The notes below the pieces were generated by a model. It was not told the DNA's origin, ran no database searches, and was given only the letters and a program-made list of their open reading frames with translations. This document shows, piece after piece, positions 1-36,609 of a stretch of 39,866 nt of DNA. The stretch's first letter is position 1. Every line of letters starts with the position of its first letter. The DNA is from an uncultured bacterium (GTDB lineage Bacteria > Bacillota > Clostridia > Oscillospirales > Oscillospiraceae): NCBI GenBank assembly GCA_945873205.1, contig CAMCCC010000021.1, positions 1-39,866 of the forward strand, given 5' to 3'. The position numbers and the translations under genes were made by a program.

Positions 1-531
1 GGTAAAACCGTGGCCCTGGTATGCAGCGGGGACGCGGGAGTGTACGGCATGGCCGCGCCCCTGCTGCAGCTGGCGGCGGACTACCCGGATGTGGAAGTGG
101 AGGTGGTGGCAGGGGTCACGGCGGCCCTCTCCGGCGCGGCGGTGCTGGGGGCTCCGCTGGGCCATGATTTCTGCGTCATCTCCCTGTCTGATCTGCTGAC
201 CCCCTGGGCGGTGATCGAAAAGCGGCTGCAATGTGCGGCCCAGGGGGATTTCGCCATCTGTCTGTATAACCCCAGCTCCAGAAAGCGGGCGGACCATCTG
301 CAAAGGGCCTGTGACATCCTCCTTGCCTCCGGGAAAGCCCCAAAAACGGTCTGCGGCTGGGTGCGAAACATCGGCCGGGAGGGCCAGGAGAAGCAGCTGC
401 TCACCTTAGAGGAGCTGCGCAGCTCCCAGCTGGATATGTTCACCACGGTTTTCATCGGTTCTGCCGGCACCCGGAACATCCAGGGGAACATGGTGACAGC
501 AAGGGGGTACGAAGCAAAATGCGAGTGGTAA
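1..531 (+). CDS. cobJ: Precorrin-3B / cobalt-precorrin-3 C17-methyltransferase, 5' end outside window
   Basis: This is the C-terminal 176 residues of a tetrapyrrole methylase that methylates C17 with ring contraction in corrin synthesis. The frame is open from base 1, so the N-terminal part with the start codon lies upstream. Visible are the SGDAGVYGMA segment of the SAM site near the window start, the VVAGVTAALSGAAVLGAPLGHDF segment split over the first 50 residues, and the LYNPSSRKR and FTTVFIGSAGTR blocks typical of CobJ/CbiH. The stop overlaps the next gene by 13 bases, so it belongs to the same operon. The anaerobic name cbiH would be equally suitable. The assignment is strong; oxygen dependence cannot be judged from this gene alone. 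Confidence 0.9.
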   Translation, partial: GKTVALVCSGDAGVYGMAAPLLQLAADYPDVEVEVVAGVTAALSGAAVLGAPLGHDFCVISLSDLLTPWAVIEKRLQCAAQGDFAICLYNPSSRKRADHLQRACDILLASGKAPKTVCGWVRNIGREGQEKQLLTLEELRSSQLDMFTTVFIGSAGTRNIQGNMVTARGYEAKCEW

Positions 532-18194: not shown

Positions 18195-18593
18195 GACTTT
18201 TCAAATTGTCTTACTGGTTTGCCCGTATTTGACACAACTTCCCCAGGCGTGGGCGAACAGCTAAACTGCGTTTGGCAACGCACTCCGGGAATCTCACCCC
18301 TCCGAGGATCTCTCCGAGCTGCTCCCTTTGCGTGAAGGCTGAGGCTGAGCAGGGGTACCATTGTAGGCAGAGAAGATCATGGCGAAACAGCCGGCCATGG
18401 CTGCTTTGGGATGGGCTGAACCGCTGGGCACCTTGCTGCCGTTCGTTTGATGCAGGAGCAAGGCCCTGCACAGGTGGTCTTGGCGCACCCTCCGAATCGC
18501 TTATTTCTCTGCTGAAGTTATTTAGCTGCCGGATATGCTCTTTTCAAGGGACAGTGAGGAGAAAATATCCCCTCACTGTAGGTAGAGATAAAA
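18195..18593 (-). other. About 400 bases without a convincing gene: long leader
   Basis: This stretch lies between the sigma-like gene and the terminator at 18147. Short frames exist on both strands (for example 18294-18488 on the - strand), but none has a good ribosome binding site, recognisable domain or sensible composition. It is GC-rich with several local inverted segments, so a structured leader RNA of the recombinase operon is possible. I could not identify a known RNA family. Confidence 0.4.
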
Positions 18594-19046
18594 TCAAGGC
18601 TTTTCACAACCTCCAACAAAATATTTTTTTATTTTTTTAATTGCGGTGCGCATGTTGCTTGATACTGCCTGTTGAGGGATGTTCAGAAACGCTCCAATTT
18701 GCTCCTGCGAATACTCCAGATAAAAGCGCAGGTACAGTATGAATTTTTGCCGTTGCGTCAATTCCAGGACTGCAAAGTAGAGGGTTTCGTTTTCAAAACT
18801 TTCAAACCAGGACAGCCATGGGGCTTCTCCGCTGTGCAGCTCTTTGCCTTGCTTGGCTGCCAGTTGGAGCAGGATATCCCGATTCATCCGAATGGAATCC
18901 ATATCCGTAATTTCATCGTAAGAGAGAAACATAGTGTGGTACTTGGCAGTTTTATTTTTATCCCGTTCAAGCTCCTTTTTTATCATGCTATTGAAATAAT
19001 GCTCTGGATTTTTGATATTTTCAGCTTTTGTCTTACGCCGTGACAT
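18594..19046 (-). CDS. Sigma-70-like regulatory protein of the mobile element
   Basis: A 150-residue basic protein. The C-terminal third, LTQRQKFILYLRFYLEYSQE followed by QIGAFLNIPQQAVSSNMRTA, is a sigma-70 region 4 helix-turn-helix, ending in KKIKKYFVGG. The N-terminal part (MSRRKTKAENIKNPEHYFN) has no evident region 2, so this is a short, region-4-type sigma or a DNA-binding regulator like those of Tn916-type elements. ATG 19046 with GGAGGAT upstream is preferred over the longer frame to 19136, which crosses the leader. It probably governs element gene expression; its targets are not visible. Confidence 0.75.
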   Translation of the reverse strand: MSRRKTKAENIKNPEHYFNSMIKKELERDKNKTAKYHTMFLSYDEITDMDSIRMNRDILLQLAAKQGKELHSGEAPWLSWFESFENETLYFAVLELTQRQKFILYLRFYLEYSQEQIGAFLNIPQQAVSSNMRTAIKKIKKYFVGGCEKP

Positions 19047-19376: not shown

Positions 19377-19419
19377 AACCCCTAGGGGGGCTTATTTTTT
19401 TGTTGGATGGTGTTATAAT
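19377..19419 (+). promoter_or_regulatory. GC-box promoter A (DUF364 gene)
   Basis: The palindrome AACCCCTAGGGGGGCTT (19377-19393) runs into a -35-like TTATTT (19392-19397), 16 bases before TATAAT (19414-19419). This is the most divergent of seven sites with the same layout; the others have longer C tracts. The start codon at 19480 is about 54 bases after the predicted start of transcription. Confidence 0.75.
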
Positions 19420-19479
19420 GAATTAACCGAAGTAGACCGTGAAAACAGACAGAGGATTGAGATAATGCCAGGAGGAACA

Positions 19480-20217
19480 ATGAATACCAAGTATTATGAG
19501 CTCTTGTTCAGAGGAATAGACAGCGATGACAGGGTTATAGATATTGTCCGTGGTTATGCATGGACAGCTGCTATATTGAGCAATGGGAATGTGGGAGTTG
19601 CGATGCATACCGAAGGGGAAACTGTCAGCCGTATGTTCCCATCCCTCGTTGGCATGAAGATATCTCAAGCCGCATATGCGGTAATGTCCTGGAATATGGA
19701 GGAAGCCAGCGAGGGTATGGCTGTCGTAAACGCATACTATAACACCCGGGAACGGACGGAAACGCTCTGCACAGGGATGAGTTTTTCAGGAGCACTCGAT
19801 GGCCTGGATATTTCAGGGAAGACAATTGGTCTTGTGGGCCATCTTGTTAACCACAGCGGGATAAGCCAGCAGCTGCTGGAAAAGGCGGGGAAATGCTACA
19901 TACTGGAAAGAGAGCCAAAGCCGGGCGATTATCCTGATTCGGCATGCGAATATCTACTGCCACAATGTGATATCGTTGTGATCACCGGCAGCGCAGCAAT
20001 CAATAAAACCATGCCCAGGCTTCTCACTTTGTCCCAAAACTCACAGATCATACTGACGGGGCCATCTGTTACTTTGTGCGCCGAGCTGATGAGTCTGGGA
20101 ATAAAGAGACTGTATGGTTTGGAAATAGAAGATTGTGAGGGCCTGTGCACTAGTATTGTGGAAGCCCCCAGCTCCATAAACCGCTTTGGCCGAAGATTCT
20201 GCCTCGATAAGATCTAA
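19480..20217 (+). CDS. DUF4213/DUF364 protein, putative heavy-metal chelation family
   Basis: A 245-residue cytoplasmic protein. The N-terminal 90 residues (VIDIVRGYAWTAAILSNGNV onwards) resemble the DUF4213 enolase-N-like module. The C-terminal part (DGLDISGKTIGLVGHLVN, LPQCDIVVITGSAAINKTMP and IILTGPSVTLCAELMSLGIK) is a DUF364 Rossmann-like domain, described in databases as putative heavy-metal chelation; no reaction is established. ATG 19480 is preceded by a perfect AGGAGG, so the longer upstream frame is rejected. It stands alone on the + strand, ended by the terminator at 20259-20299, and has GC box A. Metal or metallophore handling is an inference. Confidence 0.75.
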   Translation: MNTKYYELLFRGIDSDDRVIDIVRGYAWTAAILSNGNVGVAMHTEGETVSRMFPSLVGMKISQAAYAVMSWNMEEASEGMAVVNAYYNTRERTETLCTGMSFSGALDGLDISGKTIGLVGHLVNHSGISQQLLEKAGKCYILEREPKPGDYPDSACEYLLPQCDIVVITGSAAINKTMPRLLTLSQNSQIILTGPSVTLCAELMSLGIKRLYGLEIEDCEGLCTSIVEAPSSINRFGRRFCLDKI

Positions 20218-20258
20218 ACTGCGAAGCTATCTATTTCTCTTGACGAACAGATATAGGA

Positions 20259-20299
20259 AAAAACCCCATTTGCACATAAATGAAGCAAATGGGGTTTTT
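20259..20299. terminator. Bidirectional terminator between convergent genes
   Basis: AAAAACCCCATTTGC (20259-20273) is perfectly complementary to GCAAATGGGGTTTTT (20285-20299), giving a 15-bp stem with an 11-base loop and A/T runs on both sides. It serves the DUF364 gene on the + strand and the small membrane protein pair on the - strand. Bases 20300-20390 hold nothing else visible. Confidence 0.9.
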
Positions 20300-20390
20300 C
20301 TATATGCGTTTCACACTTCTATTAACACACAAGCGGCACCACTGTGTGTGACTGCTGCTTGTATGTTAGTGAAAAACGTGAATTACAAGA

Positions 20391-20702
20391 TCAGTTCTTC
20401 TTGGCCAGGGCGGCCTTTACGGTTCCCTTAGGATCCTTGATCAGCAGAATCACTAGCCATACAATCAAGCCTAGAGCCACAACGGACAAGCCCAGATAAG
20501 CATCGTTAAGCATATCGACCGGGGCAGGTGTAAAGAACTCTGCCTGCAGTTCCGCATATTCGAAGCATGCATCAATGAACCACATGAGGGAGGCACCCCA
20601 GTATATCCAGCACAGGGTACCTAACTTCAGTTCGCTGTGATTGCCTTTGTACCAGATAACGGTGCAAATAATGGCAGCGAACACAGTCACAAGCAATGTC
20701 AT
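20391..20702 (-). CDS. Small membrane protein, unknown function (second of pair)
   Basis: A 103-residue protein with three likely membrane helices: residues about 3-18 (TLLVTVFAAIICTVIW), 28-44 (LGTLCWIYWGASLMWFI) and 68-90 (LGLSVVALGLIVWLVILLI). An acidic loop, DACFEYAELQAEFF, lies between the second and third, and the tail is Lys-rich. I do not recognise a family. It starts 12 bases after its partner with AGGAGG before ATG 20702, and both share promoter B. The pair may form a complex in the membrane; regulon membership suggests a link to the ABC importer, but this is inference. Confidence 0.7.
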   Translation of the reverse strand: MTLLVTVFAAIICTVIWYKGNHSELKLGTLCWIYWGASLMWFIDACFEYAELQAEFFTPAPVDMLNDAYLGLSVVALGLIVWLVILLIKDPKGTVKAALAKKN

Positions 20703-20714
20703 AGGTAATCCTCC

Positions 20715-21128
20715 TTATACCGCGGCTGCAACAGGTGTCTTCTTCTTGAGAATGTGGTTGACTGCCACAACGATGAGTACCCAGACCAAGGTTACCTCAA
20801 TGGCCATAATACCGCCTACCGAACGCATTTCAGAGAGCATGACTGCCGCTTCAGCAGGATCGGCTGCAGCCGTCAGGAATGGGAACCATGGGACAACTTC
20901 ACCATGCCAGATATGCTCGAAGCAGAGCAGCAAGCAGCCGCCCCAGAGAAGATTGGCCAGCCACATCAGCTTGGTGGAGAGGGCCACCTTTACTTCTTCA
21001 ACCACCTCAGTAGCATCACTTGCAAGACTACTGTTCAGGGACTGCGCCTTCTTCTCCTTTGCCTTGAGACCACATGCCACAGCGGTGACAACGACTGCTT
21101 CTGCAGCCGGAACCAGGAAACATGCCAT
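20715..21128 (-). CDS. Small membrane protein, unknown function (first of pair)
   Basis: A 137-residue protein. An N-terminal helix, CFLVPAAEAVVVTAVACGL, is followed by a Lys/Glu-rich cytoplasmic-type stretch. Two more helices are likely, around residues 50-68 (STKLMWLANLLWGGCLLLCF) and 105-125 (IMAIEVTLVWVLIVVAVNHI). A His and acidic pair, CFEHIWHGE, sits at the end of the second helix and could bind a metal; this is only a suggestion. ATG 21128 follows AGGAG, and the frame to 21164 is rejected. Expression is from GC-box promoter B about 50 bases upstream. No family recognised. Confidence 0.7.
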   Translation of the reverse strand: MACFLVPAAEAVVVTAVACGLKAKEKKAQSLNSSLASDATEVVEEVKVALSTKLMWLANLLWGGCLLLCFEHIWHGEVVPWFPFLTAAADPAEAAVMLSEMRSVGGIMAIEVTLVWVLIVVAVNHILKKKTPVAAAV

Positions 21129-21185
21129 AAAAAAACTCCTCTCATTTTCTTTTGGATCCTTCACGCAGATCCACTTGCTGACTTC

Positions 21186-21230
21186 ATTATAGGCACGCTC
21201 TGATGCCTCTACAAGCCCCCCAGGGGGATA
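21186..21230 (-). promoter_or_regulatory. GC-box promoter B (small membrane protein pair)
   Basis: On the - strand TATCCCCCTGGGGGGCTT (21230-21213) overlaps the -35 TTGTAG (21214-21209), with TATAAT (21191-21186) 17 bases further. The box is identical over 18 bases to box C. Its centre lies about 43 bases before the predicted start of transcription. Confidence 0.85.
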
Positions 21231-21255
21231 AAATTTTCAAAAAGTCCGTTTCATT

Positions 21256-22116
21256 CTATTCGTTCTCCAGATCTGGGACACGCCAATAGATCATAGCCAT
21301 ATTCATCTGGCATTCTTCCGGAAGAACACCGTCTATGGCGTTGGCTTCCAGATAGCTTTCGAGGAAGGGAACGGAACGTGACTCCTCTATGCCAAAAATT
21401 TTAAAATACCGTGGGTAGCGATCCAATACTTCCTCTGCGGACATGGAATATTCAAAACGATCAGTCCAGCATTTTACGCTTGGCTGCCGCCCCATCATGT
21501 AGAGCACATTATAGTAAAAGAGCGCCTCGGTCGTCATTCCTGATGGCTTGATTCCCAGCAGGCGCATCATCTCCCTGCGATGTTTTTCATAAGAACCTCG
21601 GGCCACGGCTACAAGACAGGCAGTACGGCGGCTAAGCGCTTCCATTCGCTCCAACTCCTGCACGTTGCAGATTGCCGGGCACATGGCACTGAAGCATAAG
21701 TCGTATTTCTTATGCCGGGTTTCGGTGTCCAGCTGCTCCCAGAAAAGCGGGACGCATCTGATCCCCTTGATCCCTGCCTGCTCTGCTCTCCGCTTGAGTA
21801 CAGACAAGCAATCCTCATTGGCATCCAGGGCCGTCACCTGTTCACAGTGTTTGGCAAGTGCGAGACTGTATCCGCCCATGCCGGAACCAATGTCCAGAAC
21901 CCGGTCGCTGGTGCGCAGAATGTCCTCTCGGAGCATATAGCGTATCAGATGCTCCGTCTTGGAATCCTGTTTATACGCCATCTTGCTCTGCTGTCTGGCC
22001 AGATAGGAATAATAATCATTCCATCTCTGCGCCTGCTCCATACGTTCCCATCGATCTCCGGGCCGGACGGCTTCCTGCCATTCAGTTGCCACCGTTTCAA
22101 GTGTAAACACAGCCAT
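21256..22116 (-). CDS. Class I SAM-dependent methyltransferase 1
   Basis: A 286-residue Rossmann-fold methyltransferase. The SAM motif I, RVLDIGSGMGGYSLALA, is near residue 75, with the acidic end of the next strand in VTALDANEDCL. The post-II region has LCFSAMCPAICNVQELERME, where methyltransferases of small molecules usually contact substrate. The C-terminal part (about residues 150-280) is helical and not typical of UbiE-type enzymes. I chose ATG 22116, after GGAG, because the promoter's predicted start (about 22203) excludes the longer frame. Alone under promoter C. The substrate is unknown; the regulon suggests the same small ligand as its neighbours. Confidence 0.8.
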   Translation of the reverse strand: MAVFTLETVATEWQEAVRPGDRWERMEQAQRWNDYYSYLARQQSKMAYKQDSKTEHLIRYMLREDILRTSDRVLDIGSGMGGYSLALAKHCEQVTALDANEDCLSVLKRRAEQAGIKGIRCVPLFWEQLDTETRHKKYDLCFSAMCPAICNVQELERMEALSRRTACLVAVARGSYEKHRREMMRLLGIKPSGMTTEALFYYNVLYMMGRQPSVKCWTDRFEYSMSAEEVLDRYPRYFKIFGIEESRSVPFLESYLEANAIDGVLPEECQMNMAMIYWRVPDLENE

Positions 22117-22209
22117 CACTCCACACGCAATATATACAACACGGGGATGTGCCTGCTTACCGCACACCCCCGTACTGCTTGAAAGACCTAAAGCATTTAA
22201 GCTGTTTAC

Positions 22210-22254
22210 ATGATAGCATTGACATAAATTGCCTACAAGCCCCCCAGGGGGATA
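22210..22254 (-). promoter_or_regulatory. GC-box promoter C (methyltransferase 1)
   Basis: On the - strand TATCCCCCTGGGGGGCTT (22254-22237) overlaps the -35 TTGTAG (22238-22233), 17 bases from TATCAT (22215-22210). It is divergent from promoter D; the two boxes are 32 bases apart with an AT-rich spacer. Confidence 0.85.
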
Positions 22255-22286
22255 TTTTTTCATTATTTTTTCAGAAAATGAATTTA

Positions 22287-22331
22287 TATCCCCCCGGGGG
22301 GCTTACAGATCTTCTGCGGCGCTGATACAAT
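22287..22331 (+). promoter_or_regulatory. GC-box promoter D (Rex-like regulator)
   Basis: TATCCCCCCGGGGGGCTT (22287-22304) overlaps the -35 TTACAG (22303-22308), 17 bases from TACAAT (22326-22331). This is the most symmetrical box, with C6 followed by G6. Its position before the regulator gene suggests autoregulation. Confidence 0.85.
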
Positions 22332-22363
22332 GACATTAAAAACATTCGGATCGAGTGATCAAA

Positions 22364-23026
22364 ATGAGCAATCGAAATATCCCTGCCAGTATACGGCGCC
22401 TTCCCCAATATTATTGGATTGTCAAAAAACTCAGGCATGAATGCGAGGACTATATTTCCTCTGCTCGTATCGCCCAAGAACTGGGGATCTCTGCTGCCCG
22501 GGTCAGGAGTGACTTACACCAACAGAATATCTATGCAGAAAATTGTGTCGGCTATGAACCGGCTTATTTATTGAGTGCATTGCGTCATGTCCTGGGGATC
22601 GACTGTTGCCTTTCTGCCGTCCTTTTGGGTGCAACTGGCCCGGGGCGCTTGCTTCTTGATGGGAATTGTCTTTGCGAATGCGGCATGCGTCTCGCTGCTG
22701 TTTTTGACCGCCTACCCCTTGCCGACGATAAAGAGGTTCAAGGCATGGAAATCCAAGACTTTGCTGTCCTTCCGGCATTTCTTGATCAGTTTCCGGTTGA
22801 TATATCTATCATTGCATCCCCCTCCTTTGCAAACAATCAAACCTGTGAAATGCTCTCACAGTATGGTGTGAAAGCTGCCTTGGACATAACAGATACCTCG
22901 TTTGTTTGCGCGGCCTCTTCTTCTCTGATGGTGGACAAATTCAGCCTTGCGGAAAGCCTTCTATCGCTCAGCGGCATGCTGAACCAAAAAAGAGCAGGGG
23001 TGTTTAGTTCAACTACCCCTGCTTGA
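22364..23026 (+). CDS. Rex-like winged-helix transcriptional regulator with altered nucleotide loop
   Basis: A 220-residue protein. Residues 4-70 (NIPASIRRLPQYYWIVKKL, YISSARIAQELGISAARVRS, then a CVGY ending) match the Rex N-terminal winged helix closely. Residues from about 85 correspond to the Rex Rossmann domain, but the NADH loop, normally GxGNLG, reads GATGPG, and just after it stands NCLCECGMR, a Cys-x-Cys-x-Cys not expected in Rex. IASPSFANNQTCEMLSQYGV near 150 matches the later Rex region. It may sense a metal or thiol state instead of NADH. ATG 22364 is preferred; GTG 22355 is possible. The last 12 codons overlap a terminator for the opposite strand. Confidence 0.75.
   Translation: MSNRNIPASIRRLPQYYWIVKKLRHECEDYISSARIAQELGISAARVRSDLHQQNIYAENCVGYEPAYLLSALRHVLGIDCCLSAVLLGATGPGRLLLDGNCLCECGMRLAAVFDRLPLADDKEVQGMEIQDFAVLPAFLDQFPVDISIIASPSFANNQTCEMLSQYGVKAALDITDTSFVCAASSSLMVDKFSLAESLLSLSGMLNQKRAGVFSSTTPA
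22985..23023 (-). terminator. Terminator of methyltransferase 2, inside the regulator gene's 3' end
   Basis: AGCAGGGGT (22993-23001) is perfectly complementary to ACCCCTGCT (23015-23023). Read on the - strand the stem is followed by CTCTTTTTTGG, a T6 run. It lies within the last codons of the convergent Rex-like gene. Confidence 0.75.
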
Positions 23027-23037
23027 TGCGATATTCA

Positions 23038-23628
23038 TTACACGTTTTTAAGATTTCTCGCCCTTCCCGAAATCAAATACAAGTCCGGCGTATCACAGAG
23101 AATATCGACGGAGAAATAAGGTTCCCACAGCAGGCATTCTTTTCGGACAGGATTCAGTTGCACGCTCAGTCCATCCGGAACCATTTGCGAATAAATATTC
23201 ACTCGCTCCCTCCCTGCACCAAAGGCAACGGTAAATCTTCCGGAAGGTCTTATCAGGGAGTGTATTTTTTGAATGAGAGCAGAATGGTCTGTAAAAAACT
23301 GGTATGCATCAAACATAATGGCAGTGTCAAACCCGGCTTCATTGAACTCCATCAAGTCACAGCAGCAAAGGCTGACTCTTGGGTCGTATCCGGCTTTGGT
23401 TTCCGCATAGGAAATCATCCGGGGAGAGATATCCACGCCCATGATTTCGCTGGCCCCAGTCTCCAGAAGCTGGGCAAACATATCTCCTGCCCCACACCCG
23501 GCGTCCAATACATAGGAGCCGTATGATATGCCAGAAATAAATGCAGTCGCAATCCGTGCAGCAATGTTGTTCTCATAGTCACTGTCCCAGTATTCTGCAA
23601 CACTGTCAAAGTATTCCCGCTTCTGCAT
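23038..23628 (-). CDS. Class I SAM-dependent methyltransferase 2
   Basis: A 196-residue methyltransferase. Motif I is VLDAGCGAGDMFAQLLETGA near residue 44, with the SAM ribose-binding Asp in IMGVDISPRMISYA. IMFDAYQFFTDHSALIQKIH near 110 occupies the post-II position, and IRPSGRFTVAFG is motif III. It is shorter than its neighbours and ends in a basic tail. The start is ATG 23628 with GGAGGGGAG upstream; the longer frame is rejected. Alone under promoter E, with its own terminator. SAM binding is well supported, the substrate unknown. Confidence 0.8.
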   Translation of the reverse strand: MQKREYFDSVAEYWDSDYENNIAARIATAFISGISYGSYVLDAGCGAGDMFAQLLETGASEIMGVDISPRMISYAETKAGYDPRVSLCCCDLMEFNEAGFDTAIMFDAYQFFTDHSALIQKIHSLIRPSGRFTVAFGAGRERVNIYSQMVPDGLSVQLNPVRKECLLWEPYFSVDILCDTPDLYLISGRARNLKNV

Positions 23629-23660
23629 GAGCTCCCCTCCATATGGCTTGTTATGGGGCA

Positions 23661-23705
23661 ATGATATAATATTCTCATAACCGCTTCAAGCCCCCCAGGG
23701 GGATG
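23661..23705 (-). promoter_or_regulatory. GC-box promoter E (methyltransferase 2)
   Basis: On the - strand CATCCCCCTGGGGGGCTT (23705-23688) overlaps the -35 TTGAAG (23689-23684), 17 bases from TATCAT (23666-23661). Transcription should begin about 26 bases before the ATG. Confidence 0.85.
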
Positions 23706-23771
23706 AAATTCAGATATTTTTTAGGAGAATGTATGATTTTGACTTCCATTTGAACGTTTGTAAAAGATTTG

Positions 23772-24575
23772 CTAGATCTGCCGAAGAACGTTGCCCTGTT
23801 CAAGTTTAACTGCCTTAACCAGAAACATAGGAGTAGATGCAAAACTGACTTTTTCTTCCTCAGACCAGACTTGCTGCCAGATATCTTCTTCGACAGTTAC
23901 GGACAAACCCAAGCCCAAAAGCACTTCAAGGTCCCATGCGGGGCGAGAAACCTGGGATAGGGGAATGCGGCGTGCAATGTCCTCCATCACATCAAAGTTT
24001 TCCCCTACATTCTCATCCTTGAATCCCTGCTCTGCCGTATTGCGGCGATCCTCATCGTATGCGTCCCGGGCGCTTTTATCAAAGAGATAGTTGTACCAGT
24101 TGGCATCAAAGTTGAGAAGCAGCCCACCGGGCTTCAGCACACGTTCCCATTCTCGGTAAGCATTCTCCGGGTGAGGCAGATTCCATGTGAGATTGCGGGT
24201 GACGATCACATCAAAGCTCCCGTCCGTAAAGTCCAGTGTCTCGGCGTTCATCTCCATAAATCGTATTTTGCTGGCCAAAGAGCCGGCATTTTTCTTTGCC
24301 TCGGCCAGCATATTTGGCGTCAGATCGATGGCCGTTACATTGCAACCGAGCTCAGCCAGAATGATGGCAAAAAACCCCGGCCCGGTGCCAGCCTCCAGCA
24401 CATGCAATTCTTCCAGGCATCTGCCGGGAAACTGTTCCAGGATCTTTTCACTAAGAGTATGCCTCCAGACCGTATGCTGACCGGTGCGAAGCTCTTTCTG
24501 ATTAACCTGGGAATAGCCAGGAGCACGCTGGGCCCAGTAGGCCCGATTTTCATTCAATATTGTTTTGCAGGACAC
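23772..24575 (-). CDS. Class I SAM-dependent methyltransferase 3
   Basis: A 267-residue UbiE-like methyltransferase. Motif I is VLEAGTGPGFFAIILAELGC near residue 60, followed by VTAIDLTPNMLAEAKKNA. The FDVIVTRNLTWNLPHPENAY block near 125 and LKPGGLLLNFDANWY near 150 are shared closely with methyltransferase 4, so the two are paralogs. The likely start is GTG 24575, inside the end of the hydrolase gene; a TTG at 24557 is possible. The 26-base overlap and shared promoter F tie it to the hydrolase. A common substrate or product is therefore likely. Confidence 0.8.
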   Translation of the reverse strand: MSCKTILNENRAYWAQRAPGYSQVNQKELRTGQHTVWRHTLSEKILEQFPGRCLEELHVLEAGTGPGFFAIILAELGCNVTAIDLTPNMLAEAKKNAGSLASKIRFMEMNAETLDFTDGSFDVIVTRNLTWNLPHPENAYREWERVLKPGGLLLNFDANWYNYLFDKSARDAYDEDRRNTAEQGFKDENVGENFDVMEDIARRIPLSQVSRPAWDLEVLLGLGLSVTVEEDIWQQVWSEEEKVSFASTPMFLVKAVKLEQGNVLRQI

Positions 24576-25503
24576 CGTAGGTCACCATTGGCCCTTTCTC
24601 AATAATGTTCAGCGAGGAGCATTGATGTAGCAACACGCCGTCCTCCGGCGCATATTCGGTGAAAAGGCTGCGCCCGAAATAGTCCCGGATCTCGCCAAGC
24701 TTTTCACCCTTGTGGAAGAAGTCTCCAACCTTCTTTTCCGGGTACCAGCAGCCGGTGCAGGGGGCGTCGTTGCTGTATTCCAGAAGCTGTTGTTTCGGGT
24801 ATTCCGTCCAATCCCCTGACAGGATGCCTGCGTAGCGGAGAATGTTTCGTACATCGGCCTTATCCGCCTCAATTTCCTCCCGGCTGAACAAGCTCAGTTG
24901 CCCACGCTCAATCAGCACGCTGGGTATGCCGTAAATTGATGCCAGATTGTAGGCCCCACCCGTGCGGCAACGAGAACGGACATAGTACTTTGTATTCACA
25001 CAGGTCACCATTTTTTTGGCTTTTTCCTCGGCGGATGTATCACCCAGGTAGTAGACGTAGGGAACAAGCGTTTCATAGCCGTCGCCGCTGTGCAGGTCGA
25101 TGTAGAAATCCACGTTCTTGATGAACACTTCGAAAAGCGTGTGGGCCAATCGATCTGCTTCGGAGCCTTCCGCATCACCAGGGAAAACCCGGTAGAGATT
25201 CTTTCCATCCTCATAGACCATAGACATGGTGCGGTTTTCGAAGCCGGAGCGGTTTGCTAACGGCAGAATGATCACATTGCCGCGAAGCTCCTTCACGTCC
25301 AATTCATTACTCAGCTCAATGGCCGCCTGAATGCCTACATACTCGGCGTTATGGATTCCGGCGGAAATAAGCAGTGTGGGGCCGGGGTGTTCGCCGCAGA
25401 GCAGTACATGGGGGACATGTAATTCCGTACCCCGAACATGGATATGGTCTTTGATTGTCTTGCCGGGGGTCAACTCATGCCCGGCGATGCTTTTATAGCG
25501 CAT
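24550..25503 (-). CDS. Aspartoacylase / succinylglutamate desuccinylase-like zinc hydrolase
   Basis: A 317-residue M14-like metallohydrolase of the AspA/AstE family, which cleaves N-acyl amide bonds. The zinc ligands are visible as LLISAGIHNAEY (His and Glu, near residue 58) and YIDLHSGDGYE (His, near 138). VLIERGQLSLFSREEI near 220 carries the expected catalytic Glu. The last 80 residues form a beta-rich domain with VGDFFHKGEKLGEI, resembling a lipoyl/biotinyl-like fold often seen at this position. ATG 25503 follows GAGGAG. First gene after promoter F, coupled to methyltransferase 3. It may open an amide in an imported ligand; this is inference. Confidence 0.8.
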   Translation of the reverse strand: MRYKSIAGHELTPGKTIKDHIHVRGTELHVPHVLLCGEHPGPTLLISAGIHNAEYVGIQAAIELSNELDVKELRGNVIILPLANRSGFENRTMSMVYEDGKNLYRVFPGDAEGSEADRLAHTLFEVFIKNVDFYIDLHSGDGYETLVPYVYYLGDTSAEEKAKKMVTCVNTKYYVRSRCRTGGAYNLASIYGIPSVLIERGQLSLFSREEIEADKADVRNILRYAGILSGDWTEYPKQQLLEYSNDAPCTGCWYPEKKVGDFFHKGEKLGEIRDYFGRSLFTEYAPEDGVLLHQCSSLNIIEKGPMVTYGVLQNNIE

Positions 25504-25541
25504 GGGATTCTCCTCAGCTTACCATTTATAATCTCTCCCAA

Positions 25542-25586
25542 AAGGTAGCACGTTTCTTTCATAACCACAAGCCCCTGGGGGGGATG
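25542..25586 (-). promoter_or_regulatory. GC-box promoter F (hydrolase and methyltransferase 3)
   Basis: On the - strand CATCCCCCCCAGGGGCTT (25586-25569) overlaps the -35 TTGTGG (25570-25565), 17 bases from TACCTT (25547-25542). Here the C tract is long and the G tract short, shifting the symmetry centre by about 2 bases. The -10 is the weakest of the set. Confidence 0.75.
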
Positions 25587-25686
25587 CCTTTTGACGTGCC
25601 ATACATGTTTTGAGAAATGTATACCGCACCCAGCGCCCAGAACATCCTACATATGAACATGATTTTATTTTGTGAATATGAAAAAA

Positions 25687-25731
25687 ACATCCCCCTGGGG
25701 GGCTTACAATGCCTTAATTTGTGCCCTATAA
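25687..25731 (+). promoter_or_regulatory. GC-box promoter G (ABC importer operon)
   Basis: CATCCCCCTGGGGGGCTT (25687-25704) overlaps the -35 TTACAA (25703-25708), 17 bases from a perfect TATAAT (25726-25731). It drives six genes, 25782-31585, and diverges from promoter F. Confidence 0.85.
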
Positions 25732-25781: not shown

Positions 25782-26768
25782 GTGAGAAAGTATATTCTGC
25801 AGAGATTTTTACAACTAATCCCGGTTCTGATTGGGATCACGTTTCTTTCTTTTGCCATGATGCGTCTGGCAGGCAGCGACGCAGTGGAGGAACTGTACGC
25901 CAATGCAGGCGCTGCTGTGAGTCAAGATGTCATCGATGCGGCAAAGGCGGAGCTGGGGCTGGATAAGCCCTTCCTGGTGCAGTATTTCAGCTGGTTGGGC
26001 GGGATGCTTACCGGCGATATGGGTGTGAGCTTCATCTCCGGCCGGGATGTATTTCAGACCTTTGTCCGCAAGTTGCCGGCCACCCTGCTGCTGACAGCGC
26101 TGTCGATTGCTCTGACCATCGTTATTTCCATTCCGCTTGGCGTCCTGGCGGCCTATTCCTATAATCGTTGCGGGGAGGCAAAAAATGGTTGGGAACGTAT
26201 TTCGCTGGCCTTGATCGACTATGTTCTCCGCTTTTTCAGCTTCATCGGCAACTCTCTGCCCAACTTCTTCGTTGCACTGCTGCTGATGGAGCTTCTGGCA
26301 ATCCACTGGAAGCTACTGCCTGTCATCTCCAACGGCACCACGATTCGCAGCGCACTGATGCCCACCCTGACGTTGGCCATCGCCATGTCAGCCAAGTACA
26401 TGCGACAGGTGCGGGCAACTATTCTGGAGGAACTGAACAAAGACTATGTTACCGGCGCCAAAGCCAGAGGGGTGCGCAACAATGTGATTCTCTGGAAGAG
26501 CGTCATCAAGTCCTCCATGCTTACGATTGTGACACTGCTGGCCCTTTCCATCGGCAGTTTGCTGGGGGGAACTGCCATCATAGAGAGCATTTTCATGTGG
26601 GATGGTGTGGGTAAGCTGGCAGTGGATGCAATTACCATGCGCGATTATCCACTGATTCAGGCATATGTGGTCTGGATGGCGATCATCTATGTGGTGGTCA
26701 ACCTGATTACCGATCTGCTGTATCATGCCCTTGACCCGCGCATCCGACTGGGGGTGAGTGCTGAATGA
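25782..26768 (+). CDS. ABC importer permease 1 (NikB/DppB type)
   Basis: A 328-residue inner-membrane permease of the nickel/oligopeptide class. It begins YILQRFLQLIPVLIGITFLS, the conserved first helix, and has the ATPase-contacting loop EELNKDYVTGAKARGVRNN near residue 215. GSLLGGTAIIESIFMWDGVG near 260 and LLYHALDPRIRLG at the end are typical. The start is GTG 25782 after GGGGA. It overlaps the next permease by 4 bases. Substrates of this class include Ni(II), Ni-chelates, opine metallophores and peptides, which sequence alone does not separate. Confidence 0.88.
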   Translation: MRKYILQRFLQLIPVLIGITFLSFAMMRLAGSDAVEELYANAGAAVSQDVIDAAKAELGLDKPFLVQYFSWLGGMLTGDMGVSFISGRDVFQTFVRKLPATLLLTALSIALTIVISIPLGVLAAYSYNRCGEAKNGWERISLALIDYVLRFFSFIGNSLPNFFVALLLMELLAIHWKLLPVISNGTTIRSALMPTLTLAIAMSAKYMRQVRATILEELNKDYVTGAKARGVRNNVILWKSVIKSSMLTIVTLLALSIGSLLGGTAIIESIFMWDGVGKLAVDAITMRDYPLIQAYVVWMAIIYVVVNLITDLLYHALDPRIRLGVSAE

Positions 26769-27616
26769 GTGAGACTACTGTTCGTATCCAGAAGATCTGT
26801 CGGGATACAGTCAAGACCCGCCTGATCATTTTTGGTACGCTTGCCCTGCTCCTCGTTGCCTGCTCCCTGTTTGCAGAGCACCTCTGTCCATATGACCCAT
26901 ACCTGCAAGACCTGTCCAACGCCAAGGCGGCGCCATCAGCGGAACATATTTTCGGTACCGACCGCTATGGACGGGACATGCTCTCCCGCGTTATTGTAGG
27001 AAGCCGGACGAGCATTTTCTCTACGCTGCTTCTGGTAGCAATCATCACCGTCATCGGCACCGTTATTGGCGTGTTCTGCGGCTGGCACGGCAAATGGATC
27101 GACACGGTGCTCATGCGCATTTCGGATATGTTTCTGGCTTTTCCTGGCCTGGTGTTTGCGTTGGCTGTGGCCGGCGTTTTAGGCGGCGGACTGCAAAATG
27201 CCATTATTGCCCTAGCGGCCATCTCATGGCCCAAATATGCCCGCATTGCTAGGAGCCAGACTCTGGCGCAGAAGGAGACAACCTATCTGAAAGCGGCGAA
27301 GCTGGCGGGAGACAGCACTGCAAAAATTATTTTCAAGCATATTTTACCGAACATCATTGGCCCCATTCTGGTAACTTCCATGCTGGATATCGGCACCATG
27401 ATGATGGAACTGGCGGGACTCAGCTTTCTCGGCCTTGGCGCAAAGCCCCCCATAGCCGAGTGGGGTAGCATGATGAGTGATACCCGGAGCCTGCTGACCA
27501 CAGTTCCCTGGGTTACCTTTGCCCCCGGCCTCGCCATCTTTATCTCCGTTATGGTCTTCAACCTCCTGGGTGACACCATTCGGGACTATGCGGATCCGAA
27601 GAGCAGGGGGAGGTGA
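26765..27616 (+). CDS. ABC importer permease 2 (NikC/DppC type)
   Basis: A 283-residue permease that pairs with the gene before. After a first helix near residues 18-36 come HIFGTDRYGRDMLSRVIVGS (the DppC/NikC signature, near 60), FLAFPGLVFALAVAGVLGGG and the ATPase-contacting loop KETTYLKAAKLAGDSTAKII near 175. LSFLGLGAKPPIAEWGSM near 220 and LLGDTIRDYADPKSRGR at the end confirm the family. ATG 26765 overlaps the preceding stop, and the stop overlaps the ribosome binding site of the ATPase gene. Confidence 0.88.
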   Translation: MSETTVRIQKICRDTVKTRLIIFGTLALLLVACSLFAEHLCPYDPYLQDLSNAKAAPSAEHIFGTDRYGRDMLSRVIVGSRTSIFSTLLLVAIITVIGTVIGVFCGWHGKWIDTVLMRISDMFLAFPGLVFALAVAGVLGGGLQNAIIALAAISWPKYARIARSQTLAQKETTYLKAAKLAGDSTAKIIFKHILPNIIGPILVTSMLDIGTMMMELAGLSFLGLGAKPPIAEWGSMMSDTRSLLTTVPWVTFAPGLAIFISVMVFNLLGDTIRDYADPKSRGR

Positions 27617-27621
27617 GCGGT

Positions 27622-28404
27622 ATGGCTGAAATATTAAGATATGACCATGTGGAAATTGCCTACAACGGAAAAACCGCCGTGAGGGATGTTAGCTTTACCC
27701 TTAACGAGGGTGAGATCCTTGGCATCGTTGGGGAAAGCGGTTCCGGCAAGTCTACGCTTATCAAGGCCGCCATGGGTTTGCTGGGGCCTAACGGCTTGGT
27801 CACCCGCGGAGACATTTGGTATAATGGAAAAAGTTTGCCGGATTTGAAAGAGAATGAGCTGAGAAAGATTAACGGTCAGTCCATCGGTATGATTTTCCAG
27901 AGCGCTGGCGCGTCATTTTGCCCCATCCGTACAGTAGGTCGGCAGCTCTATGAGAGCATGACCGAACATGAACAGATCAGCAAAAAGGAGTTCCAGACCC
28001 TGGCCCTATCCCTTCTGCAAAAGCTTGGCTTTGAAAACGGCCAGCGCATTCTGCAAAGCTATCCCTTCGAACTCTCCGGCGGTATGCAGCAACGCGTGGG
28101 CATCGCCGCGGCCATGCTGCTTAAACCCAGCATCCTCCTGGCGGATGAGCCGACCTCCGCATTGGATGTTTCCGTGCAGAAACAAGTGGTGGAAGAAATG
28201 CTCTTGGTGCGAAAAACATTCGGTACTGCCATTGTAGTGGTGACACACAATATCGGCGTCATCGGGGCCATGGCTGACAATGTGCTTGTCATGAAAGATG
28301 GGGCGGTTGTGGAGTACGGAGAGACTAAGCAGGTGCTGGAAAACCCAAGAGAAGAATATACCCGGACGCTTATGGCGGCAGTTCCGCGTTTGAGGAGGAT
28401 GTGA
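27622..28404 (+). CDS. ABC importer ATPase 1 (NikD/DppD type)
   Basis: A 260-residue ATPase. Walker A is GESGSGKSTLIKAAMGLLG near residue 37, the Q-loop is IFQSAGASFCPIRTVGRQ, the signature LSGGMQQRVGIAAAML near 150, and Walker B ILLADEPTSALD. It lacks the usual Cys-rich C-terminal extension with the oligopeptide-type RxxxP motif and ends at PRLRRM, the short form seen in NikD. ATG 27622 lies after GGGGGAGGTGA; a GTG at 27613 is possible. It energises the two permeases together with the following ATPase. Confidence 0.88.
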   Translation: MAEILRYDHVEIAYNGKTAVRDVSFTLNEGEILGIVGESGSGKSTLIKAAMGLLGPNGLVTRGDIWYNGKSLPDLKENELRKINGQSIGMIFQSAGASFCPIRTVGRQLYESMTEHEQISKKEFQTLALSLLQKLGFENGQRILQSYPFELSGGMQQRVGIAAAMLLKPSILLADEPTSALDVSVQKQVVEEMLLVRKTFGTAIVVVTHNIGVIGAMADNVLVMKDGAVVEYGETKQVLENPREEYTRTLMAAVPRLRRM

Positions 28405-28405
28405 G

Positions 28406-29164
28406 ATGAAACCGATCTTGAAAGTGGAAAATCTCACCAAAGTCTTTAGCCGGCGAGGCCAGCCGGATTTCACTGCCGTGAAAAATGTGAGTTTTGAACT
28501 AATGACCGGCGAGTGCCTGGGCATCATCGGCGAGAGCGGCAGCGGCAAGACCACGCTGGTCAACATGATTACTCGCTTGTTAGATGCTACCGAGGGCAGC
28601 ATTATCCTGCGGGGCGAGGATATTACCCACATCAACGGAAAAGAACTTCGGACTGTCTACCGTAAGATGCAGATGGTCTTCCAGACACCAACGGATTCTT
28701 TTGATCCTCGCCGCAAACTGGGTGACAGTATTGGAGAAAGCCTGCGCAACAATGGAATGTCTGTCTCTGAGTCGAAACAGAATGTGACAAGGCTGCTAAA
28801 AATGTGTGGTCTCCCCGCCGAGTTTGCTGGCCGCTATCCCCATCAGGTCAGTGGCGGCCAGTGTCAGAGGGCAGCCATTGCCCGGGCAATTGCAATTAAG
28901 CCGGAGTTGCTGGTTCTGGATGAGGCGACCTCCGCCCTGGATGTGACCATTCAGAAGGAGATTCTCGAGCTGCTGACCATGCTCAAGGATGAACTGCACA
29001 TGTCCTATCTGTTTATCTGCCATGACATTGCTCTGGTGCAGCAATTCTGTGACCGGGTGCTTGTCATGTATAAGGGCAGCATCGTAGAGCAGGGAAGACC
29101 TGACGATGTGATTCAAAATCCGAAGGATGATTATACCAAGCGTCTGATCGACAGCATTTTATAA
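28406..29164 (+). CDS. ABC importer ATPase 2 (NikE/DppF type)
   Basis: A 252-residue ATPase. Walker A is GESGSGKTTLVNMI near residue 39, the Q-loop is MVFQTPTDSFDPRRKLGDS, the signature VSGGQCQRAAIARAIA near 150, and Walker B LLVLDEATSALDVT. The C-terminal tail is short (IQNPKDDYTKRLIDSIL), as in NikE. The start is ATG 28406 with GAGGAGG upstream, one base after the preceding stop. It forms the heterodimer with ATPase 1. Confidence 0.88.
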   Translation: MKPILKVENLTKVFSRRGQPDFTAVKNVSFELMTGECLGIIGESGSGKTTLVNMITRLLDATEGSIILRGEDITHINGKELRTVYRKMQMVFQTPTDSFDPRRKLGDSIGESLRNNGMSVSESKQNVTRLLKMCGLPAEFAGRYPHQVSGGQCQRAAIARAIAIKPELLVLDEATSALDVTIQKEILELLTMLKDELHMSYLFICHDIALVQQFCDRVLVMYKGSIVEQGRPDDVIQNPKDDYTKRLIDSIL

Positions 29165-29201: not shown

Positions 29202-29226
29202 CATGATACAAGGAGAGGCATGGCAA

Positions 29227-29952
29227 ATGGAAAGAATCAAGCATCGCATCACCCACTACTGGTCCCATCGGGCGGAATCCTTTGCGGATCAGCGTATTCG
29301 GGAATTTGAGAGCGAAAAGAGAGAACGTTGGCTCGCGGAGTTCAAAAAATATCTCCCCCAGGGCAATCCGCTGCGTGTTCTGGATTTGGGCACCGGTACC
29401 GGCTTTTTTGCATTGCTGCTTGCGGCTGAAGGCCATGACGCCACAGGCATCGACCTGACAGCGGAGATGATCCATGGCGCGGAACATACTGCCGCCATTC
29501 TGGGGTTGGACGCCAAGTTTCAGGTCATGGACGCAGAATCGCCGGAGCTTGAGCCGGAGAGCTTTGACGTGTTGGTTAGCCGGAACCTTACGTGGACTCT
29601 GCCGAGATTGGCCAGGGCCTATCAGGAGTGGTACAAGCTACTGGCGCCCGGCGGTGTGCTCATCAATTTCGATGCGGACTACTGTGGGGCTGCGGAAGCA
29701 ACGGCGGAAATCGAACTGCCATCTAACCACGCCCATAAGCAGGTCAGCGCCGAGCTGATGGCTGAGAATGATTCCATTACGATGGAGCTCTCTGCCTATC
29801 AGCAACCACGGCCACAATGGGATGTGCAGCTTCTGATAGAGGCGGGCTTTGAACGTATCCTTGTGGATACCAGCGTTTACAAGCGTATCTACCCTGAGAA
29901 AGACGAGTTTTACAATCCGACGCCCATTTTTACCATTGCTGCGTATAAGTAA
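29227..29952 (+). CDS. Class I SAM-dependent methyltransferase 4
   Basis: A 241-residue UbiE-like methyltransferase inside the importer operon. Motif I is VLDLGTGTGFFALLLAAEGH near residue 51, followed by ATGIDLTAEMIHGAEH. FDVLVSRNLTWTLPRLARAY near 112 and LAPGGVLINFDADYC near 140 are nearly the same as in methyltransferase 3. I chose ATG 29227, nine bases after AGGAGAGG, over ATG 29203, which lies before that site. Its position between ATPase and binding protein argues that the transported ligand, or its breakdown product, is the methyl acceptor, or that it is made by methylation. No direct evidence decides this. Confidence 0.82.
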   Translation: MERIKHRITHYWSHRAESFADQRIREFESEKRERWLAEFKKYLPQGNPLRVLDLGTGTGFFALLLAAEGHDATGIDLTAEMIHGAEHTAAILGLDAKFQVMDAESPELEPESFDVLVSRNLTWTLPRLARAYQEWYKLLAPGGVLINFDADYCGAAEATAEIELPSNHAHKQVSAELMAENDSITMELSAYQQPRPQWDVQLLIEAGFERILVDTSVYKRIYPEKDEFYNPTPIFTIAAYK

Positions 29953-30025
29953 GATGTTGGGTCAGTTGAAATGACCTATCATGAGATACCCCAGTCAAAC
30001 ATCAAAAGAAAGGAAGATAATAAAG

Positions 30026-31585
30026 ATGAAAAAAGCACTGTCCCTTCTCCTTGCGCTGTGCCTGATGGTCGGCCTGCTGGCTGGCTGCGGCAGCTCCCAG
30101 ACCCAGAATAGCGACGCCGAAGCCGCCGTAACCAAGAAGACCATGGTTATTGGCGATACAACCTTTAACCCTGAGAATGCTGAGCCCGATGTAAACCCTC
30201 ATAACGACTATGCTGGTTGGGCCTGTATCCGCTATGGCGTGGGAGAGACACTGTTCAAGCTCAACGATGAGATGGCCCTGACCCCCTGGCTTGCCAAGGA
30301 GTGGGAAAATGTGGATGAACTGACTTGGGTCATCACCCTGCAGGACGGTGTCAAGTTCTCCAGCGGCCGGGATATGGACGCTGCTGCTGTCAAGCAGTGT
30401 CTGGAGCATTTGCTTGAGACCCATGACCGTGCCCCTGGTGATCTGATGATCGATGCCATTGAGGCCGATGGTCAGGTTCTGACCATCAAGACCAGTGTGC
30501 CTCGCCCCGCTCTGCTCAACTACCTCTGCGACCCCTACGGCTGCATTATTGATGTGGATGCGGGTTTTGACGGCGGCATTGTTGCCGGCACCGGCCCCTA
30601 CATCGCTGTGGACTGTGAAAGCGGCGACCATTTGAATCTGGTCAAGAATGAAAACTATTGGAACGGTACTCCTCATATCGATGAGCTGACGATTCGCACC
30701 ATTTCCGACGGCAATACCCTGGCTATGGCTCTTCAGGCTGGAGAGATTGACGCTGCCTACGGCATGGCCTATGAGAGCTATCCACTGTTCCAGAATGACC
30801 AGTTCCAATTCTCTCAGATTGCTACCTCTCGCGCCTTCTTCTGCTGGATGAACTATGAAAGCCCCCTGGCTTCCGACCCCGCTGTCCGCAAGGCCATTGC
30901 CATGGGTATTGACAAGGAAGGCTTTGTGGCCACTCTGCTGGACGGCAACGGCTATCCCGGCAACGGTGCATTCCCATCGGGCTTTGCCTTCGGCGGCGAC
31001 AAGGTAACCACCGAAACTTACGATCCTGAAGGAGCAAGGAAGGTTCTGGAGGATGCCGGCTGGGTGGACACAGACGGCGACGGCATCCGCGAAAAGGATG
31101 GCAAGAAGCTCCAAATTAAATGGCTGACCTATCCCAGCCGCCAGGAACTGCCTCTGCTGGCTGAATCCGCGCAGGCCACCTTGAAGGAAATTGGCATCGC
31201 AGTGGATATCAACTCTACCGCTGACCACAACAGCATTATCACTGATATGAACGCATGGGATGTGTATGCCTCTGCAAATGTAAATGCCAGCATTGGTGAT
31301 CCGGAATACTTCTTTACCTCCTTCTGTCTGGACAGCTCCTCCAAGAACAAAGGCCACTACCATTCCGATGCCATCGAGGAGCTGGAAAAACAGATGGCCA
31401 CCGAGTTTGACCCGGCCAAGCGCGCTGAACTGGCGCTCAAGATGCAGCAGGTTATTCTGGACGATAATGCATGGGTGTTCTGCTCTTTCCTGAAGATGAG
31501 TATGATCTCCAAGGCCAATGTTACTCGATATATTTCCCACCCCACCGACTTCTACCAGGTTACAGTCGACCTGGATATTAACTGA
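30026..31585 (+). CDS. Lipoprotein substrate-binding protein of the ABC importer (NikA/OppA/CntA class)
   Basis: A 519-residue family 5 solute-binding lipoprotein. The signal peptide ends in LLAGC, with the lipidated Cys at 21. Family blocks include YGVGETLFKLNDEMALTPWL, LAKEWENVDELTWVITLQDG, VKFSSGRDMDAAAVKQCLEH, GTGPYIAVDCESGDHLNLVK and PAVRKAIAMGIDKEGF. Size and layout fit nickel, opine-metallophore or peptide binders; I see no decisive His signature. ATG 30026 follows AAGGAAG; the longer upstream frame would add a stretch before a normal signal peptide. It is last in the operon, before the terminator at 31585. It acts outside the membrane, capturing the ligand for the permeases. Confidence 0.88.
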   Translation: MKKALSLLLALCLMVGLLAGCGSSQTQNSDAEAAVTKKTMVIGDTTFNPENAEPDVNPHNDYAGWACIRYGVGETLFKLNDEMALTPWLAKEWENVDELTWVITLQDGVKFSSGRDMDAAAVKQCLEHLLETHDRAPGDLMIDAIEADGQVLTIKTSVPRPALLNYLCDPYGCIIDVDAGFDGGIVAGTGPYIAVDCESGDHLNLVKNENYWNGTPHIDELTIRTISDGNTLAMALQAGEIDAAYGMAYESYPLFQNDQFQFSQIATSRAFFCWMNYESPLASDPAVRKAIAMGIDKEGFVATLLDGNGYPGNGAFPSGFAFGGDKVTTETYDPEGARKVLEDAGWVDTDGDGIREKDGKKLQIKWLTYPSRQELPLLAESAQATLKEIGIAVDINSTADHNSIITDMNAWDVYASANVNASIGDPEYFFTSFCLDSSSKNKGHYHSDAIEELEKQMATEFDPAKRAELALKMQQVILDDNAWVFCSFLKMSMISKANVTRYISHPTDFYQVTVDLDIN

Positions 31586-34719: not shown

Positions 34720-34777
34720 TTTGGGTTCTGTCGATTGATGAGAGCAAAAAAGGCAAAGAGCAAACGCTCTCTGCCTT

Positions 34778-35503: not shown

Positions 35504-35684
35504 GGCGGGACTCCAGCCCGGCCATCTTTCTGTGAGAAGCGAGAAGGGCAGATTTCATCTGATCCCCGGTCAGCTCTCCTCTGGCCCAGGCGGCAGACAG
35601 GGTCTTGGCATAATCGGACACCGGCGCACCCTCAATAGCGTTGATTGCGTCCGCGGTTTTTACCGCCGCCAGCCGTCTATCCAT
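35496..35684 (-). CDS. VbhA-like antitoxin of the Fic toxin
   Basis: A 62-residue helical protein, MDRRLAAVKTADAINAIEG followed by APVSDYAKTLSAAWARGELT and GDQMKSALLASH. The layout is that of antitoxin VbhA, whose helix blocks ATP in the Fic site through an (S/T)xxxE(G/N) motif. Here the Glu-Gly is present but the residue four before Glu is Ile, not Ser or Thr. ATG 35684 follows GGAAG; a TTG start further up is possible. It overlaps the Fic gene, giving antitoxin first. The family call rests on context plus pattern. Confidence 0.75.
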   Translation of the reverse strand: MDRRLAAVKTADAINAIEGAPVSDYAKTLSAAWARGELTGDQMKSALLASHRKMAGLESRHV

Positions 35685-36595: not shown

Positions 36596-36609
36596 ATGCT
36601 TTCCTCCTT

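Follow-up and report, generated by a model that had tools for sequence, protein, structure and literature searches.

The 39,866-nt contig CAMCCC010000021.1 (assembly GCA_945873205.1; this whole stretch is hereafter the window), from an uncultured bacterium of the Oscillospiraceae, carries between positions 19377 and 25731 seven copies of a palindromic box fused to the -35 elements of predicted promoters. Judged from sequence comparison, this box most likely serves as operator for an InrS-type, His-rich CsoR/RcnR protein encoded on the chromosome, and its targets point to nickel, with cobalt less likely, as the metal of the regulon. We consider it probable that this regulator, in its metal-free (apo) form, acts through the box to activate uptake genes when nickel is scarce. 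The pairing of box and regulator emerged from comparison of genomes, because the two co-occur, the regulator gene frequently has a box of its own, the promoter geometry is fixed and the types of target genes fit.

The box and its promoters in the window

Alignment of the seven sites gave an ungapped 17-bp consensus, ATCCCC-N4-GGGGCTT. An earlier note on this DNA, prepared from the letters alone, had called seven boxes; all are present, with coordinates here refined to 17 bp, whereas its consensus (without the first Y, ATCCCCCYRGGGGGGCTT) was one base over-long and had no match in the genome even at 2 mismatches. The sites are as follows:

19377-19393 (+): box 1, with one mismatch (AACCCCTAGGGGGGCTT); -35 TTATTT, 16 nt, -10 TATAAT; upstream of the DUF364/DUF4213 gene
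21213-21229 (-): box 2; -35 TTGTAG, 17 nt, -10 TATAAT; upstream of the 20715-21128 gene (mem137)
22237-22253 (-): box 3; -35 TTGTAG, 17 nt, -10 TATCAT; upstream of the methyltransferase gene MT1
22288-22304 (+): box 4; -35 TTACAG, 17 nt, -10 TACAAT; upstream of the Rex-like gene
23688-23704 (-): box 5; -35 TTGAAG, 17 nt, -10 TATCAT; upstream of MT2
25569-25585 (-): box 6; -35 TTGTGG, 17 nt, -10 TACCTT; upstream of AstE-MT3
25689-25705 (+): box 7; -35 TTACAA, 17 nt, -10 TATAAT; upstream of the nickel-type ATP-binding cassette (ABC) operon

The final TT of the box supplies the first two bases of the -35 at each site, and the spacer to the -10 is 17 nt at six sites and 16 nt at 19377, in agreement with the 16-17 bases proposed previously. 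With 17-nt spacing and the +1 assumed to lie 7 nt past the -10, the core of the box is centred at about -42.5, as had also been predicted (42-43 bases before the start); this is the geometry of a class II activator, that is, a site near -41.5 abutting a weak -35. The neighbouring perfect TTGACA promoter cited for contrast is probably that at 19251-19246 (-); its -10, TATTAG 16 nt further on, was judged poor. No TTGACn-16..18-TAnnnT promoter was found in the window besides that at 18761 (-). When the pattern was relaxed to 19 bases with 3 mismatches allowed, the window gave 10 matches where 4.4 were expected, a number reached in 2 of 100 shuffles; taken alone, this is weak evidence for the box.

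Distribution of the box

The genome of the window, G000, comprises 2.22 Mb in 48 contigs and is 91% complete; it was compared within a set of 102 genomes of its genus (G000 included), with the box read backwards as specificity control. The motif scan of this and related genomes that the earlier note had proposed came out in favour of the box: the exact 17-mer had eight matches in G000, six of them in the window, against none for the control, and it occurred in 92 of the 102 genomes against 9 for the control. Both exact boxes outside the window precede genes, one a CbiM gene on contig C6 (Pfam CbiM and PDGLE) and the other a CsoR/RcnR-family gene on contig C31. One-mismatch places in G000 numbered 12, namely site 19377 and 11 within mechanical open reading frames (ORFs) of at least 100 aa, some of which may be spurious in GC-rich DNA. 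Loosened to 2 mismatches or fewer, the pattern became unspecific, since 156 matches stood against 42 for the control.

The earlier note had suggested the Rex-like protein encoded from 22364 as a binder of the box, and its gene does carry a box of its own amid six others. This protein is a divergent Rex that fell short of the Rex family profile (top NCBIfam match 114 bits, cut-off 130), with the N-terminal Pfam domain PF06971 above cut-off. Some match to it was found in 47 of 59 other genomes searched, yet none exceeded 34% identity, although the exact box is present in 92 of the 102; the second Rex-like match of G000 itself, at 30% identity, is comparable to those of other genomes. Moreover, a gene whose best match is this protein follows just one of 95 box sites examined, that of the window itself. 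The Rex-like protein was therefore rejected as the conserved binder, a role that we regard as highly improbable.

The candidate regulator

The note had also remarked that the dyad recalls CsoR/RcnR operators while no such gene lies in the window; this hint was upheld, because a gene of the family is located elsewhere in the genome, at C31:11532-11909, behind the same exact box. It encodes a 126-aa protein with a long His-rich N-terminus that matches the family profile PF02583 (97 bits, cut-off 22.8). The closest solved structure was InrS (5fmn, E 2e-23), followed by the CsoR-like protein 6ahx (9e-22); CsoR (2hh7, E 9e-12) and FrmR ranked behind InrS. The Ni(II) ligands of InrS are His21, Cys53, His78 and Cys82 according to the part of a review available to us (PMC7055735), and H41, C73, H98 and C102 of the C31 protein align with them, the H41 match falling inside a repetitive His tract. 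Among 10 aligned sequences C73, H98 and C102 were invariant and H41 nearly so. The NCBIfam matches were to RicR, FrmR and RcnR models, each under cut-off, with no InrS model among them.

Orthologs (E<=2.3e-37) were found in 88 of the 102 genus genomes, G000 included. Of the 30 top-scoring loci fetched, 21 have csoR preceded directly by a box that deviates at no more than one position. Across the order, 394 genomes were sampled, and with G000 set aside the exact box was present in 13 of the 27 that carry a strong ortholog (E<=2.4e-25, a threshold set post hoc) versus 31 of the remaining 366 (odds ratio 10, p=5e-7, kinship uncontrolled). Because their cores are not C/G, many of these 31 boxes, and a part of the 13, may be due to chance; among the 13, only G212, G369 and G456, all of genus g30, have the box directly upstream of csoR, as judged by position. 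No NikR_C match was detected in any of the 102 genus genomes (Nur was not searched for).

Two further CsoR/RcnR genes were noticed. One is a second CsoR gene of G000 on contig C4, which by eye adjoins an apparent copper-type ATPase gene and is without an exact box within the 10 kb inspected. The other is a paralog inside box clusters (L192 609-917 (+), and also in L193, L196, L202 and L204), which retains the Cys in the region of the RDC motif, has lost the His and Cys of DHxxHC and is likely a sensor-dead partner, as judged from these residues.

Promoter architecture and operator position

Promoter statistics were taken from 95 distinct exact-box contexts of the fetched loci. A good -10 followed the box in 87 of the 95, at a spacer of 17 in 78, compared with 7 (3 at 17) when the downstream sequence was shuffled. 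Across the genus, 78 of 87 ATCCCCCCGGGGGG rows (G003 to G032:C12, compared by eye) run on into CTT; the nine that do not include the self-palindromic G006 and G085, counted on both strands, and G092:C29 just upstream of csoR. The -35 elements are poor: none of the 95 has the full TTGACA, four match it at 5 of 6 positions, and the fourth base is A in only 6. Their last four bases gave 1.17 consensus matches against 1.06 by composition, and the last three 0.51 against 0.75 expected.

A different arrangement was seen elsewhere in the order. The motif was readable in 21 of 30 csoR loci fetched order-wide (L126-L155), one being that of G000; of the other 20, seven had a symmetric form, ATCCCC-N5-GGGGAT, two (f1/g30) the CTT form and 11 neither. 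The seven span five families (f13, f15, f16, f20 and f26), and each has a -35/-10 pair upstream of the operator, which starts 6 nt (six loci) or 11 nt (one locus) past the -10 and therefore covers the +1, a repressor position. Five of these seven -35 elements score 5-6 of 6 consensus bases, in a scan that takes the best pair within 70 nt and so biases scores upward. By eye, three csoR promoters of Lachnospiraceae or unplaced Clostridia (L249, L256 and L267) also look fused. Among 80 named loci, the best upstream form was CTT (<=2 mismatches) in 25, symmetric in 6 and none in 49. It appears from these alignments that the same operator is used in two positions: in some families it lies past the -10, and in the genus studied here it is joined to the -35.

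Target genes and the metal

For the 95 box sites, the gene behind the box was matched to reference proteins at BLAST E<=1e-5; 81 sites precede a matching gene, in a few cases with the gene start over 190 nt away, and 14 were left without assignment. The targets are csoR (21, an inflated count, since csoR was the route by which 30 of the loci had been obtained), methyltransferases (13), FecCD (12), cbiM (11), oppB (6), AstE (6), Peripla_BP_2 (4) and nik-type solute-binding proteins (3); HypB, CobW-like, oppF, Rex-like (in the window itself) and mem137 genes occur once each. ABC systems dependent on a solute-binding protein, CbiM, and FecCD with its periplasmic binding protein are importers. HypB in a box cluster exceeded its NCBIfam equivalog cut-off (250.9 versus 121.2 bits). 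In the window, the first permease of the ABC importer had as top NCBIfam match Opp2B, 'nickel ABC transporter permease' (335.7 bits, under the cut-off of 350), and the solute-binding protein had Opp5A_nikA (334 bits, under the cut-off of 600). No nrsD-type efflux gene was recognised behind the box in G000.

The divergence of AstE-MT3 and oppB seen in the window was found again in L194; in L203, AstE-MT3 is divergent from an MT4-oppB operon, and in L196 and L197 the divergent boxes lie before MT3 and oppB, AstE being absent from the output of the ORF filter used.

A box-driven small RNA

Several of the unassigned box sites had no protein gene behind them; a conserved transcript-like sequence follows instead, starting with AGATCAGATGC and ending in a strong terminator. 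A covariance model of this small RNA (sRNA) of about 140 nt, built from 11 sequences, matched 49 of the 102 genus genomes (E<=1e-3), some weakly or partially. The 30 best loci, one per genome (L286-L315; for example L286 1501-1638 (-)), all carry the box, 26 in exact form (the motif missed two of these) and 4 in near form, and in 24 exact-box loci it sits at the same distance from the sRNA. Eight of the 30 were seeds of the model and had been found via the box (L286, L293, L296, L301, L302, L308, L313 and L314); the 22 non-seed loci are likewise all box-bearing (18 exact, 4 near), with L287 the same as L286 within the match. The conserved start coincides with the predicted +1. Moreover, at 21 of the 30 loci a neighbouring gene matches one of the regulon references, oppD and oppF not counted; some of these matches are weak.

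A sequence-only alignment of 28 members supported a main stem, an inner hairpin and the terminator. Changes on both sides occurred in 14 of 24 pairs, and the 92 covarying cells exceeded the shuffled value of 32.9 +- 5.8 (reached in 0 of 500 shuffles) and dropped to 7-16 when the pairing was slid by 1-3 columns. Folding of 31 distinct full-length sequences predicted the CACCUCUC loop and, with some exceptions, a CCCUC loop to be unpaired, while the AUCUCUCUU linker was only partly so. Ten sources other than the window were compared with Rfam, and in those of their loci that bear the sRNA no family matched over its gene at gathering score; a known riboswitch or other Rfam RNA behind the boxes was dismissed, the only non-tRNA matches being two pemK RNAs. 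These pemK cis-regulatory RNAs (RF02913) lie at window 18284-18364 (-), by the recombinase genes, and at L202 6674-6766 (+), by an sRNA locus. The genome of the window has no convincing copy of the sRNA (best match E 0.005, with no box in the sequence shown), and one query of plasmids gave no match. The regulator seems, from the box at these loci, to control the sRNA in sister species, and the sRNA may be a nickel-sparing RNA that masks ribosome sites.

Mode of control

The proposed mechanism is as follows: 1) the metal-free C31-type protein would bind the C/G palindrome abutting the defective -35, at about -42.5; 2) the bound apo-protein would recruit RNA polymerase as a class II activator; 3) scarcity of Ni(II), or less likely Co(II), would switch on the import genes and the sRNA; and 4) metal binding through H41/C73/H98/C102 would release the protein and shut down import. 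Apo-activation is favoured because of the InrS precedent, the rigidity of the position and the weak -35 elements. For the first of these, the available part of the review reports that InrS binds upstream of nik and enhances the import genes (PMC7055735). As to the earlier claim of an activator-dependent regulon, a single regulon is supported, and the activator role is plausible.

Several observations weigh against parts of this reading. With regard to the pairing, 9 of the 30 fetched csoR loci lack a close box, 7 of the 88 ortholog-bearing genomes lack an exact box, and 14 of the 102 genus genomes have no strong ortholog, 11 of these still bearing the box. Those 11 genomes are all at most 84% complete, and in one of them, G082, a piece of the ortholog is cut off by the end of a contig; the three box-less genomes among the 14 include the two most complete, G001 (95%) and G069 (87%). 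With regard to the metal, the CbiM matches are all below cut-offs and to models named cobalt transporters, and cobalt keeps some likelihood because cobalamin genes fill positions 519-10663 of the window. With regard to the sign, CsoR/RcnR members are mostly repressors, and at the third -35 position 63 of the 95 box promoters have the consensus G. A TGn motif precedes the -10 in 39 of the 95, so that some promoters may not need a -35, and by eye it does so at all 30 sRNA promoters; the argument for activation from -35 weakness alone is tempered accordingly. In family f13 (L191), the csoR operon with repressor geometry holds an EamA-CbiQ fusion and an ABC ATPase and is thus uptake-like, an arrangement that would suit a metal co-repressor.

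Such co-repression is the first alternative: a metal-loaded InrS-like protein would block the -35, and Ni/Co sufficiency would repress uptake, that is, NikR logic on a CsoR scaffold. The overlap of the box with the first two -35 bases and the L191 operon fit this, as do the TGn-extended -10 elements of the 30 sRNA promoters, which could fire without an activator. However, a repressor site would not need one exact phase throughout, nor -35 elements barely above composition, and the 56 of 95 box promoters without TGn still match the -35 consensus at only 2-5 of 6 positions. In addition, the characterised nickel-responsive members of the family leave DNA on metal binding (PMC7055735, same part), and on balance we judge co-repression rather unlikely. 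Ordinary CsoR logic, in which the apo-protein represses, metal induces and the genes handle metal surplus, is the default mode of the family according to the same source, and the import role of AstE, DUF364 and the methyltransferases is unproven; the regulon nevertheless holds importers of the three types named above, and we hold this second alternative to be improbable.

In L191 (5230-6897 (-)) the fused EamA-CbiQ gene is followed by that of the ABC ATPase, and by eye the operon adjoins apparent cobalamin biosynthesis genes. The EamA part may be the substrate-binding subunit for cobalt; a plain efflux role for csoR-eamA is weakened by the fusion.

Returning to apo-activation, we put forward tentatively, at slightly less than even confidence, the fuller proposal that an InrS-type protein of uncultured Oscillospiraceae has become a genus-wide nickel-starvation activator, with its operator moved from the +1 to the -35, and drives a nickel-sparing sRNA.

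Gene content of the window

The genes of the boxed region are listed below; MT1 to MT4 are S-adenosylmethionine (SAM) methyltransferases.

19480..20217 (+): DUF4213/DUF364 'putative heavy-metal chelation' protein (Pfam PF04016, PF13938; start chosen by hand)
20391..20702 (-): mem103, small membrane-like protein (no Pfam match)
20715..21128 (-): mem137, second small membrane-like protein (no Pfam match; start chosen by hand)
21256..22116 (-): MT1 (Pfam; start chosen by hand)
22364..23026 (+): divergent Rex-like protein (Put_DNA-bind_N and CoA_binding), a box target
23038..23628 (-): MT2 (Pfam; start chosen by hand)
23772..24575 (-): MT3 (Pfam)
24550..25503 (-): AstE/AspA-type deacylase (Pfam PF24827)
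25782..29164 (+): Opp/Nik-type ABC importer, two permeases and two ATPases (profile matches)
29203..29952 (+): MT4 (profile match)
29981..31585 (+): solute-binding protein, SBP_bac_5 (profile match)

Relatives of mem103 go with box clusters in the genus; they are 63-71% identical and adjoin 9 of the 30 sRNA loci. Relatives of mem137 were also found in other genus loci. On both sides of the nickel cassette (13891-17881 (-) and 33838-39757 (-)) are two large serine recombinase genes and Toprim/DUF3991 and TraG-like genes, and a gene for a sigma-70 region 4 protein (18594-19046) also flanks it; the cassette may be carried on a mobile element. The transporter/methyltransferase cassette beside the recombinase genes would be plugged into the host regulator. 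The cobalamin biosynthesis genes, in the left part of the window (519-10663 (+)), encode CbiJ, a CbiA/CobB type, a CobT-type phosphoribosyltransferase, CobS, CobD/CbiB and a CobQ type.

Relation to known systems and significance

The CsoR/RcnR family is known chiefly for export repressors that metal releases from DNA, and its operators are G-tract/C-tract dyads. The symmetric C-tract/G-tract form adjoining csoR in other families of the order resembles these operators, whereas in the genus the right half, GGGGCTT(G), doubles as the start of the -35. The nearest counterpart of the C31 protein is InrS, the Ni(II) sensor of Synechocystis, as its best structural relative, by its aligned ligands and by its reported import role (PMC7055735, in the part available). 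Unlike InrS, the C31 protein has a long His-rich tail, its box is fused to the -35 at many promoters genus-wide, and its targets include importers, methyltransferases, HypB and the sRNA, with no nrsD-type gene recognised behind the box in G000. NikR and Nur regulons serve the same task, control of nickel uptake; here the fold of the regulator is that of CsoR/RcnR.

An sRNA under the site of a metal regulator is reminiscent of RyhB and its analogs (Fur), RsaC (MntR), NikS (NikR) and s-SodF (Nur). FsrA has exposed C/U-rich loops, which the box-driven sRNA shares. sRNAs under Fur, Nur, MntR and NikR are tabulated in PMC9294342; CsoR/RcnR is not in the available part of that table of transcription factors and sRNAs, and the RNA described here has no Rfam match where tested.

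The regulator family and the InrS precedent for an import role are known already. As far as the literature searched shows, three elements are new: 1) a promoter-fused operator across a genus-wide uptake regulon, 2) the comparison of a two-position operator between families, and 3) a small RNA linked to a CsoR/RcnR regulator. If the link is true, this would be the first sRNA tied to the family in that literature, and it would bring metal-sparing RNAs to a regulator family that has none in the available part of the PMC9294342 table. One operator in two positions among related bacteria is a clean test of position setting the sign of control, and the regulon would offer a nickel-starvation response in gut and rumen Clostridia where no NikR was found.

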